Shown here in pieces: positions 15,632 through 42,832 of a DNA stretch of 56,585 nucleotides. Origin of the DNA: an uncultured Mycoplasmatota bacterium (GTDB lineage Bacteria; Bacillota_I; Bacilli_A; Mycoplasmatales; Mycoplasmoidaceae); the NCBI GenBank assembly GCA_949527715.1, contig CATEWF010000002.1, positions 1 to 56,585 of the forward strand, given 5' to 3'. The stretch's first letter is position 1. Each line of letters opens with the position of its first letter. Made by a program: the position numbers and the translations under genes. Below the pieces are notes generated by a model. That model was not told where the DNA came from. It saw nothing but the letters and a program-made list of their open reading frames with translations, and ran no database searches.

Positions 15632-16459
15632 ATGATAAAGAAAATTATACATATAGCGGATATACATATACCTAATTCAGAAAAAGACAAACCATTTTCA
15701 ACAATGATTGAACGTTTCCTTGCTGAATTATATGCAGAGGTTAAAAATGACAATAAAGAAGAAGTTAGAATTGTTATTTGTGGTGATATATTTGAACAAA
15801 AGATTAAAACTTCAAATGAAGCCAAAGTTATTTTTCATAATATGCTAAACTTCTTAAATGCAATAGGACAAACCATAATTATTGCAGGAAATCATGATAT
15901 GTTAGAAAATAACCACGATAGAAAAGATTCAATAACTCCTACATTTTCGATATCAAAAGTATATGATAAAATAACATATCTTGATAAAGAACTTGATTAC
16001 AAAAGTGGTTTTATTATAGATGATGATGTTATATGGGTATTATACTCAATGTTTGATAAGTATCAATGCCCAGACCTTGAAGATATAAAAGAGCAATATC
16101 CAGATAAAAAAGTAATTGGATTATATCACGGAAATGTTGATGGTGCAGTTACTGATGTTGGTATCAGTATTGATAATGGTATTAATACCTCTTTATTCAA
16201 AGATTGTGATTGTGTAATGGCAGGACATATCCATAAACATCAAGAATTAAAAAGAAATGGTGTTCCTATTGTATATGCAGGCTCATTATTCCAAAATGAT
16301 GCTGGCGAAAACATTACAGGACACGGATTTTTAATATGGGATGTTGATAAGTTATCATATACATTGCATGAAGTGAAAAATGATTATAAGATATACAAAT
16401 TCAATATATCATCGTATGATGATATAAAAAATGATGATGAGAGATTAATTAACTACTAA
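15632..16459 (+). CDS. 47: Recombination endonuclease subunit, gp47/SbcD/Mre11-like metallophosphoesterase
   Basis: IADIHIPN, VICGDIFE, IIAGNHDM, YHGNVDG, VMAGHIHKHQ. Confidence 0.93.
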   Translation: MIKKIIHIADIHIPNSEKDKPFSTMIERFLAELYAEVKNDNKEEVRIVICGDIFEQKIKTSNEAKVIFHNMLNFLNAIGQTIIIAGNHDMLENNHDRKDSITPTFSISKVYDKITYLDKELDYKSGFIIDDDVIWVLYSMFDKYQCPDLEDIKEQYPDKKVIGLYHGNVDGAVTDVGISIDNGINTSLFKDCDCVMAGHIHKHQELKRNGVPIVYAGSLFQNDAGENITGHGFLIWDVDKLSYTLHEVKNDYKIYKFNISSYDDIKNDDERLINY

Positions 16460-16470
16460 TCTCTCATCAT
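16434..16470. terminator. Bidirectional intrinsic terminator
   Basis: ATGATGAGAGATTA-attaactac-TAATCTCTCATCAT then TTTTTA; 14-bp perfect stem at convergent stops. Confidence 0.85.
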
Positions 16471-18039
16471 TTTTATATTACTATTAACATCCTGTTCTAC
16501 TATATATAATATATCACCACCCATCGTTTCTGCATTTTTTATATTAATCATAGTTTTTCTATTACGATTACTAAGATTTTTATCACAAAAAACAGTTATA
16601 ATATGCATCTCGTTGTCATAATCATACTTATGTGTAGCATGACACCATAATGCATAAGAACCTACTATAATTTGGGAGTCATGTTCACCATATCTATTAG
16701 TAGAAACTATATAAATTTTATTCTTTTCAATTTTCTTTTCTTCTAATGGCACAAATGTTTTCTTTTCTTCTTCATCTTCGTTAATAATACTAACATCATC
16801 TATTAATGCAGAAATGGCTTTTGCATTTTGTATTAATTCTTTATTATAATCTTGTTTTGTCTTACACTCACTACGTTGTTTATCACACATTTTATTAAAT
16901 TGTTCTAATAAAACATCTTCGATACCAATTTGTTCTTCTTTTTTTATTTTAATTCTTAATTCTTTTTTTGTATCTGAATTATTTTCATTATAAAAATAAA
17001 TTATATAATAATCAGTATCTTCATTTGTATAGCCTATATAATTAATATCTACTTTATATTCATTATATGGATAATTTAACATATGTTTATATTTAATATT
17101 TGATAAAATCAATCCATAATCTTCTTTATCAATATCATTATCTGAATATGCGGAATATGTTAAAGATAAAGTCTTACTGCCACCATATACTTTTAAATTA
17201 ATAAACTTACATACTTCTTTATCACTTTCGGCATCTATTTCACCGATATCTTTACCAAATTGAATATCATAATAACATCCATTTTGAATAATAGACAAAG
17301 TGGTTATATCACCACTATTATTATCAATAACATTTACATAGAAATAACGTTTATCAGATGAATAATTATCATCAACATAAAATGTTATTACTGATTGTTG
17401 TTTATTATTCTCACTATTACCAATGTTGACATAATTTTTTTTAACTTTTATCCAATCAGTTTCATCATACTCTAATTCATACGAATTGGTTAATTCATCA
17501 TTATTTAAAATTTGACATTCAATTACGCATGAATATGAATTTTTCAAAAAAATGTTATCATCTTTGACATCTTTATAATCTTTTTCTGGTTTTATCGTTA
17601 TAAACTTAATTTTTTGTATTGGATAACTCATCACGAAATAATTACCGACAATTTCATAACGTTCTAAACAATCAGACGATATTGGGTCTGAATTACTGAC
17701 ATATACAACTTTCGTATTTTCTTCTTTTATTACACTATATGTATCATATCCTATCGTGATTTTATCATCAATAATTGGATATTTAATTTCTACTTGTCCT
17801 CCTTTTATTACATATTCATTAGTAATATTTAATACCTTATTGTTTTGTACAGGATATTCACTATTACCGATTAAAATATAATCTATTTCAAATACATCAT
17901 ATGTATTACCATCAATTATAACTTTATTGTTGGAAACATTATAAATTTCGCCATTAACATTTACCTTTCCATCATTTATTTCATAATCATATTCTCTATG
18001 CGAAATCTTTGATTTAAAATTAAATTTACTCATATGCAA
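16456..18039 (-). CDS. Virion-associated protein with beta repeats and BACON-like domains
   Basis: N-terminal KVIIDGNTYDV-type repeats; DWIKVKKNYVNI...VITFYVDDNYSSDKRYFYVNVIDNNSGDITTLSIIQNG and a C-terminal ...NRKTMINIKNAETMGGDILYIVEQDVN. Confidence 0.6.
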   Translation of the reverse strand: MHMSKFNFKSKISHREYDYEINDGKVNVNGEIYNVSNNKVIIDGNTYDVFEIDYILIGNSEYPVQNNKVLNITNEYVIKGGQVEIKYPIIDDKITIGYDTYSVIKEENTKVVYVSNSDPISSDCLERYEIVGNYFVMSYPIQKIKFITIKPEKDYKDVKDDNIFLKNSYSCVIECQILNNDELTNSYELEYDETDWIKVKKNYVNIGNSENNKQQSVITFYVDDNYSSDKRYFYVNVIDNNSGDITTLSIIQNGCYYDIQFGKDIGEIDAESDKEVCKFINLKVYGGSKTLSLTYSAYSDNDIDKEDYGLILSNIKYKHMLNYPYNEYKVDINYIGYTNEDTDYYIIYFYNENNSDTKKELRIKIKKEEQIGIEDVLLEQFNKMCDKQRSECKTKQDYNKELIQNAKAISALIDDVSIINEDEEEKKTFVPLEEKKIEKNKIYIVSTNRYGEHDSQIIVGSYALWCHATHKYDYDNEMHIITVFCDKNLSNRNRKTMINIKNAETMGGDILYIVEQDVNSNIKMMRD

Positions 18040-40294: not shown

Positions 40295-42832
40295 TTACCT
40301 ATTTTTTCGGTACTCTTGCTTTACTGACTTAGCAATACTTTGTGCCGAATTAGATATACCATTGTCATTATAAAGTGGTTCAGTGTTATCTAAATCAGTC
40401 ATATCAAACTTACAAGTACCATTATTAAATAGAACATCTTTAAATTGTGTTCTACCGATTTTTGCAGCACGTAACTTACCTATAAACAAACTTAACCTTC
40501 CTCTTTCTTTTTGTTCATCCGTTTGAGCTAATTGTATTACGATATGTCCGATTTGGGTCTTCTTAACGGAACCACCAGCGTGTGCTAATGTAACAATTTC
40601 TTGACCGATAGAGCCTTTTGTTCCTTGCACAGGAACCCACATTGCAACATCCATTTCTTTACAGATGGTTTCAAGTTTACGCATTGTAACACCTTCTCTT
40701 GACCATTCACTATCATTTGAACTGTCTGATTTTTCTGATTTTAAACATTCAAAATAATCAATTATGACCAAATCTGGTTTAAATCCAAATGCAATATACT
40801 TTTTAATTATATTTTTTATTTCAGAAGCCGTTACTTCACCAGTACTTAAACGATGTGAAATGATATTTTTCTTGAGCATCTGCTTCAATTCACTATCTTC
40901 ATTAAGTCTTCTTACGGCTTCTGGCTTTATCGCTGGGTCAGACAAAGTACATGCATCAATATCAAGCATATACCCATAATATTTTCTTCTAATATTAACT
41001 TCTTCATCTTCAAAAAAGAAATGTAATACTTTGAATCCTTGAAAATTATTATATTCAGTTAATGTTGTTGCCGCAGAAGCAGCAAAACCTGTTGTAATTG
41101 ATGTATTATGAGTCACAATAAAATCATCTGTAATATACAAATGTTCATCTGAATCGACCATAATACACTGTGCTTCTTCATCACGAATATATTCTACATT
41201 TTCAATATAAATATTATCAATATATTTAGTACGATATTTAACTCTTGATGATTTTCTTTCAAGTCTAAAAGGCTTAACAGTTTCATCATGAAAACTTATA
41301 CTTATTCTATAAGAAACACCACAATCTATTTTCTTATTCGTCATTTTATCTTTATAAAATGTGTTTTTTTCAGATAAATAAGCATTACCGCCTAACGACC
41401 TAACTAAAAACATCACATTTTCAGCCAAAATCTTACTTTTAGTGCTAAATGAAGACAGTCCTGACTTTGATACACATCCGTCACTATCCATTAATCCTTG
41501 TAATAATGACATTCTCACTTCAATTGAATTATGTAGATATGTTTCAGGTATCTTTTTATCTTCACTTTTACAACATCCAACAAGTTCTTTTAAATTTTGT
41601 CTATCTTCACCATTTAAAGATAATTCCCAAATATTACGTTTTTTATTATAGGTAAAATGTGACTTATCACATATCATATTACTTAATATTTCATAAACCT
41701 CTTCATAATCATTATTACCTATTGTTATAGAACTACGACTGTAACACCCATCTCCAATATAATAACCTAACAAATATGGATTAACAATAACTTCTTGCCT
41801 TATAAATTCAACTTTTTCATTATTTGGTATTCTGAATACTTTACTTATCTTGCCAGATTTACTTGTTTTATAAAGCCCTTTATCAATTATTTCACGTAGA
41901 GTCATAGTTTTAAATGAATAATCAGGATTAAATTCTCTTTTCATATTTTTAACCCCACTACCCTTTACATATGTCTTACGTGTTCTCTGCCAATAAGTAT
42001 TTACATTCCACAAATGTTCAATATCACATTCACAAGAACGACCATTACTAAATGTAATTTTATATATAGGTCGAATACCTTGTGGAAATACACCTGTAAC
42101 AGAATATGATTTTCCATCACGTCCTATAACTTTATCTCCTATTTCAATTTCACCCATTGTTTTAAAACCATTTGGAGTCAAAACTTTCGAAGATAATGGT
42201 TGTGCCTTTCCAACACCCATTGGTGCAATAATAAGTCCTAATTCCTTTTTACCTAGTCCTCCATATAAAGATTCGTCTAATTCTTGACAGCCAGTGGATA
42301 TGGTTTGTCTATAATCATCTTTCAAGTCACCTTCGACATTTTCAAAAAGTCTAAAACCCATATCTTGTTTGGTATTAGTTTCAAGAGCTTTTTTAATAAT
42401 ATCTTCTATAATATAATAATCCTTTGCATTACCTTTTTTAATAATATCGGTAGCCTTATTCAAAGCCTTTGTTAAATTCTGTTGTTTAAAAAATTTCTCC
42501 GCTTCTTCCTTAATTAAATCAATTGCATCAAATGGCATTTCTCTGATTTTATTAAGCATTGAAACATTTTGATTAACAGCAATAGTATCAGAAACTTTAC
42601 TACGAATAAGAACATCCAAATCAAGATAAGTAGGAACTACTGAACTTGATGCATATCTGTCCTTCATTAGACCAACTATACGTCTAAGATGTTCGTCAGT
42701 AAACATATTTTGGTCTATAATTTCATATAATGAAACAAAAAATTGTTGGTCTTCAATAAAACACTTAACTAATCTTATTTGATAATCTGTACCTAAATAA
42801 CCAAGAGTTGCATTATTAACTATTTTTGACAT
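40295..42832 (-). CDS. 41: DnaB/gp41-type replicative helicase containing an intein
   Basis: Host exteins (APMGVGK | TSITTGFAASAA..., PDLVIIDYFECLKS) flank an in-frame 367-aa insertion with intein motifs. Confidence 0.92.
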   Translation of the reverse strand: MSKIVNNATLGYLGTDYQIRLVKCFIEDQQFFVSLYEIIDQNMFTDEHLRRIVGLMKDRYASSSVVPTYLDLDVLIRSKVSDTIAVNQNVSMLNKIREMPFDAIDLIKEEAEKFFKQQNLTKALNKATDIIKKGNAKDYYIIEDIIKKALETNTKQDMGFRLFENVEGDLKDDYRQTISTGCQELDESLYGGLGKKELGLIIAPMGVGKAQPLSSKVLTPNGFKTMGEIEIGDKVIGRDGKSYSVTGVFPQGIRPIYKITFSNGRSCECDIEHLWNVNTYWQRTRKTYVKGSGVKNMKREFNPDYSFKTMTLREIIDKGLYKTSKSGKISKVFRIPNNEKVEFIRQEVIVNPYLLGYYIGDGCYSRSSITIGNNDYEEVYEILSNMICDKSHFTYNKKRNIWELSLNGEDRQNLKELVGCCKSEDKKIPETYLHNSIEVRMSLLQGLMDSDGCVSKSGLSSFSTKSKILAENVMFLVRSLGGNAYLSEKNTFYKDKMTNKKIDCGVSYRISISFHDETVKPFRLERKSSRVKYRTKYIDNIYIENVEYIRDEEAQCIMVDSDEHLYITDDFIVTHNTSITTGFAASAATTLTEYNNFQGFKVLHFFFEDEEVNIRRKYYGYMLDIDACTLSDPAIKPEAVRRLNEDSELKQMLKKNIISHRLSTGEVTASEIKNIIKKYIAFGFKPDLVIIDYFECLKSEKSDSSNDSEWSREGVTMRKLETICKEMDVAMWVPVQGTKGSIGQEIVTLAHAGGSVKKTQIGHIVIQLAQTDEQKERGRLSLFIGKLRAAKIGRTQFKDVLFNNGTCKFDMTDLDNTEPLYNDNGISNSAQSIAKSVKQEYRKNR
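41105..42205 (-). mobile_element. Intein with LAGLIDADG homing endonuclease, codons 210-576 of the helicase ORF
   Basis: Starts AQPLSSKVLTPNGFKTMGEI, ends HLYITDDFIVTHN followed by T; LLGYYIGDG and LLQGLMDSDG endonuclease motifs. Confidence 0.92.

Follow-up and report, generated by a model that had tools for sequence, protein, structure and literature searches.

The DNA we analysed (hereafter the window, 56,585 nucleotides) very probably carries a mobile class 3 intein in the Walker A loop of a phage replicative helicase resembling T4 gp41; we infer the intein's splicing chemistry and homing activity from characterised relatives. The helicase gene is an 845-residue ORF on the minus strand (40295-42832) that translates as a T4-gp41/SPO1-type replicative helicase, interrupted in frame by a 367-residue insert (A1-N367, ORF residues 210-576, positions 41105-42205, minus strand). 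The gp41/DnaB-like N-extein (residues 1-209, 42206..42832, minus strand), delimited by aligning the joined exteins across the junction, ends in ...APMGVGK, and the C-extein (40295..41104, minus strand) runs from TSITTG to the stop codon and carries a DnaB_C domain (Pfam DnaB_C, 9.6e-7; PHROG 19). The insert starts AQPLSSKV, finishes DFIVTHN, and lies exactly between the Lys and the Thr of the Walker A motif, flanked by ...LIIAPMGVGK and TSITTGFAAS (...LGLIIAPMGVGK on one side, TSITTGFAASAA on the other); its ends are fixed by intein-less helicases, whose sequence continues through the junction without a break. An earlier note on this DNA had placed a 367-residue insert at 41105-42205 between K and T of the Walker A motif of a phage replicative helicase, and had read from it an Ala at position 1, a block B Trp, a block F Cys, a block G Thr, and a Thr at +1; the ORF, the coordinates, and every one of these residues are correct.

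As the earlier note had it, the insert sits in a phage replicative helicase; homology shows the enzyme to be of the T4-gp41/DnaB-like kind. It matches PHROG 19 (DnaB-like replicative helicase) at 3e-46, and the joined extein (478 residues) aligns through the junction and over nearly its full length, including the SF4 RecA-type core, with the helicases of Lysinibacillus phage LysYB1 (7e-20) and SPO1 (8e-17) and with Aeh1 gp41 (1e-6). The genes nearby make up a T4-like set for replication and nucleotide metabolism (NrdD, NrdG, a 5'-3' exonuclease, UvsX/RecA, thymidine kinase, and a gp32-like single-stranded DNA binding protein), together with a baseplate wedge protein. With the Lys and Thr of the Walker A motif separated by the insert, ATP binding by the helicase should require splicing.

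The insert matches known inteins far beyond what chance would give: Pfam LAGLIDADG_3 and Hom_end are recognised at E=1e-11 and 6e-9, phmmer retrieves class 3 intein crystal structures, and 721 phage records match at least 80% of its length. Judged by the class 3 signature positions as defined in PMC5222942 and PMC3196547, it clearly bears all the sequence features that mark a class 3 intein, a rarer chemical type. Specifically, i) residue 1 (42203..42205, minus strand) is Ala, and so has a side chain without a nucleophile; ii) block B (D61-I-E-H64-L-W66, 42008..42025, minus strand) combines a DxxH motif, as also described for block B of the class 3 intein Msm DnaBi1 (PMC6195587), with the class 3 Trp at B:12 in the context HLW; iii) Cys347 of block F (F:4, in AQC; 41165..41167, minus strand) is the predicted first nucleophile and branch point; iv) block G ends in Thr365-His366-Asn367 (in VTHN; 41105..41113, minus strand), comprising the class 3 Thr at G:5, the penultimate His, and the cyclising Asn; and v) the +1 residue (41102..41104, minus strand), the helicase's own Walker A Thr, is the predicted second branch point. 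All class 3 inteins but one have Ser or Thr at +1 (PMC5222942), and the window intein and 92 relatives fit this rule.

The earlier note had also claimed a WCT-type class 3 match and had proposed aligning the insert with class 1/3 intein profiles. When the insert was aligned with the Protein Data Bank, it matched the Mycobacterium DnaB class 3 inteins 6bs8, 6rix, and 6riy and the gp41-1 entries 6riz and 6qaz; W66 and C347 align with the Trp and block-F Cys of 6bs8, 6rix, and 6riz, and the set W66, C347, and T365-H366-N367 lines up with WCT and HN in the class 3 structures. The three residues are thus not displaced to other columns but fall on the correct ones of experimentally characterised class 3 inteins, which supports the claim. 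The C-terminal splicing half gave weak scores against the solved structures in single-sequence comparisons. The 6riz entry is gp41-1 carrying C1A, F65W, and D107C, that is, a WCT triad grafted onto a class 1 intein (PMC7664689), and a profile of related inteins scores it at 78.8 bits and native gp41-1 (6qaz) at 64.7 bits; this 14-bit preference is the sole direct class 1/class 3 contrast, the intein tree holding only WCT-type rows, and serves as a small built-in control for the assignment of the W and C columns to class 3. An AlphaFold model built from 43 aligned inteins (mean pLDDT 90.5, pTM 0.89) likewise matches full-length intein-endonucleases in Foldseek (PI-SceI, E=5e-17), the N-terminal splicing half matching 6riy, 6bs8, and 6rix with an rmsd of 1.2-1.4 Å over 70 columns for most chains, and the endonuclease fold also matching I-DmoI.

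We compared the insert with 92 related inteins, 80 of them from IMG/VR (those with an endonuclease pattern that ranked best by similarity) and 12 from phage records or a first scan, leaving 87 distinct sequences once copies are removed. H64, W66, C347, T365, H366, and N367 are invariant in 92/92, a figure which describes conservation within the family rather than an unbiased census, the relatives having been ranked by how closely they resemble a class 3 query. Residue 1, by contrast, is Ala in 59, Ser in 10, Gly in 5, Met in 4, and Asp in 3, with seven further types (12 in total); the same holds within the group of inteins sharing the K|T site, where A, S, or D occupies position 1 beside an unchanged block-F Cys. 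A free residue 1 beside a fixed block-F Cys is as expected if that Cys is the first nucleophile, and the family-wide pattern of fixed W, C, and T thus lends comparative support to the proposed class 3 chemistry. The +1 residue is Thr in 83 and Ser in 9, and a GK dipeptide precedes the intein in 84/92. Among the hosts annotated in phage records are helicases, terminases, and SNF2-type ATPases. Genes bearing WCT inteins, such as PhiPA3 gene 233 and the Klebsiella N1M2 terminase gene, are in several records labelled 'DarB-like antirestriction', a label apparently carried over from the intein region.

Some relatives have the full WCT set and also, at residue 1, a side chain that could act as a nucleophile: Cys in L056 and L098 (2/92), and Ser in 10/92 (L001, L026, L029, L031, L033, L057, and others). 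Because residue 1 has drifted to include Ser and Cys, some members could use either starting nucleophile, and there is an outside chance that such members, able to begin splicing from residue 1 or from the block-F Cys, are living intermediates between the class 1 and the class 3 chemistry; the window copy would in that case be a regular class 3 intein.

Two other accounts of the splicing domain have to be weighed, both prompted by the Ala at residue 1. The class 2 KlbA inteins have Ala at this position too, and in a class 2-like intein the +1 residue would attack the N-terminal junction directly, residue 1 would be non-nucleophilic, and the block-F Cys incidental. We consider this extremely improbable: Thr at +1 is a poor direct nucleophile and the position is never Cys in any of the 92 relatives, all of which keep both the block-F Cys and the block-B Trp; the WCT triad is present, which places the insert outside class 2; and class 2 inteins are found only in KlbA (PMC3196547), whereas the host here is a gp41/DnaB-like helicase. 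Alternatively, a residue 1 other than Cys, Ser, or Thr might mark a class 1 lineage that has lost Cys1 and is now dead for splicing or for N-terminal cleavage, the phage obtaining its helicase from another gene or a helper phage; a splicing-dead class 3 relative, Arth_1007, is indeed known (PMC3196547). Arth_1007, however, is without the block-F Cys and the block-B His (PMC3196547), whereas the window intein keeps the remaining catalytic residues in an open ORF, and the same arrangement is invariant in 92 diverse inteins, mostly inserted in the P-loops of ATPases that should depend on splicing, so that a dead class 1 intein is very improbable as well.

A class 3 intein would splice as follows. 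Cys347, in an active site formed with His64 and Thr365 and held by Trp66, would attack the Lys(-1)-Ala1 bond to give a first branched thioester; the N-extein would then pass to Thr+1, giving a second branch; Asn367 would cyclise with the help of His366 and free the intein; and an O-N acyl shift would restore GVGKTS and with it a helicase competent as an ATPase. The two-motif LAGLIDADG endonuclease lies between the two splicing halves; its predicted role during co-infection is to cleave the GK|T(T/S) coding site in helicase genes that lack an intein, whereupon the intein would be copied in.

The earlier note had described two apparently intact LAGLIDADG motifs and had suggested a search for intein-less alleles in related phages; both points are borne out. 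Pfam and conservation place the first motif (LLGYYIGDG, catalytic D152) at 41747..41773 and the second (LLQGLMDSDG, catalytic D242) at 41477..41506, both on the minus strand, and both acidic residues are invariant among the relatives. Among the 80 viral contigs closest by C-extein, 74 have an insert-free site and read straight through GVGK-TT (for example LGVILAPFGVGKTTLVTRM); of the other 6, 5 show an intein C-terminus and 1 is too short to tell. When 22 intein-bearing and 29 empty helicases are placed on a tree, the presence of the intein requires 11 changes, at least 9 of them forced by well-supported branches; on the intein tree the same-site copies cluster as a single group (one change) with modest support (79/65). 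The histories of intein and host are also at odds: the inteins of L062 and L028 are 93% identical and their exteins 63%, and for L062 and L001 the figures are 55% and 74%. Scattered presence, together with inteins that are often more alike than their hosts, points to homing with repeated gain and loss. The dN/dS values for the endonuclease, mostly 0.06-0.25 between close pairs (0.04-0.16 for the splicing part; 0.51 for the endonuclease of L040/L057, on few changes), show the domain in related copies to be under purifying selection. These values come from relatives, and repeated gain and loss by homing fits the data at the level of the family, the nearest relative of the window copy being only 48% identical. 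Two pairs of helicases, L038 with L133 and L032 with L153, are adjacent on the tree with one member carrying and the other lacking the intein, and are candidates for recent gains and natural recipient alleles.

It is also conceivable that the insert is a class 3 intein that still splices but has an endonuclease that has stopped cutting, leaving vertical inheritance as its sole route. The long branches on which the intein and the extein of the window copy both lie would suit such a history, and endonuclease activity is predicted from sequence. Yet both catalytic Asp residues and the LAGLIDADG framework are retained, the relatives' endonuclease domains are under purifying selection, and presence on the helicase tree is patchy; we regard loss of homing as unlikely, and favour a mobile class 3 intein.

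We wish to add a word on the source of the contig. The window comes from a 1.2-Mb, 153-contig MAG, of which it is contig C2; the host-type genes (synthetases) of this MAG each contain 11-14 in-frame TGA codons, so that the bacterium reads TGA as Trp. In the 42 window genes counted, Trp is encoded by TGG (173 codons), and 3 genes stop at TGA with only short open frames beyond. The intein was not found in 60 related genomes of the MAG, consistent with a contig foreign to this bacterium. The window is probably a phage contig of a standard-code host that was mis-binned with a Mycoplasma-like genome. In a search aimed at placing the phage, the gp32-like protein found no match in phage records. A protein encoded at 16456-18039 has a BACON domain match (1.7e-5), which may hint at the phage's true host; the domain is common in Bacteroidota-associated phages. 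Another phage-like contig of the same MAG carries a second WCT-type intein (G000:C1:58115-59167; L008:1624-2682, minus; L182:7867-9801, minus); this one has Gly1, W, C, and THN as well as two LAGLIDADG motifs, and interrupts, at DYK|T, an apparent active-site motif of a PD-(D/E)XK nuclease.

Among the closest known systems, the same-site IMG/VR inteins (L001, L003, L020, L022-L034, L062, and others) share the helicase family, the K|T site, and the intein-tree group with the window intein at about 40-48% identity; they come from uncultured sources and have Ala, Ser, or Asp at residue 1. The best full-length structural match is PI-SceI (VMA1), in which a two-motif LAGLIDADG endonuclease likewise splits a HINT splicing domain, but which uses class 1 chemistry, is about 17% identical to the window intein, and has an extra DNA-recognition region. 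P-loop class 3 inteins are known from mycobacterial DnaB-family helicases (PMC6195587), and the K|T site has been called classic (PMC5050341). The M. smegmatis DnaBi1 and M. chimaera DnaB1 inteins (6BS8, 6RIX, 6RIY; PMC6195587, PMC7664689) also occupy a DnaB-family P-loop with the Walker A Ser/Thr at +1, and share with the window intein Ala1, DxxH, Trp B:12, Cys F:4, Thr G:5, the penultimate His, and the terminal Asn. They differ in being mini-inteins without an endonuclease in a bacterial DnaB, whereas the window intein is full-length, carries LAGLIDADG motifs, and resides in a phage gp41-type helicase; DnaBi1 has Ser at +1 rather than Thr. We considered a DnaBi1-type redox switch and rejected it, since the redox-partner Cys48 of DnaBi1 aligns with Ile47 of the window intein; its splicing need not respond alike to oxidation, and the regulation cannot be carried over. 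The intein of mycobacteriophage Bethlehem DnaB and others, as described by Tori and Perler (2010, 2011, via PMC3196547; PMC5050341), are likewise phage-borne with the WCT triplet; going by that description, the Bethlehem intein belongs to another phage lineage and another subfamily of host enzyme. A phage origin of class 3 inteins has been proposed in the same work (Tori and Perler 2011, via PMC3196547). The class and the site are thus already known, and our understanding of inteins is unchanged; what is clearly new is a well-formed, endonuclease-bearing class 3 member in a phage gp41-type helicase. The class 3 inteins that have been studied structurally, DnaBi1 among them, are mini-inteins, whereas a full-length and apparently mobile one, with many same-site relatives and empty alleles, would allow homing and splicing to be compared in a site-matched family.
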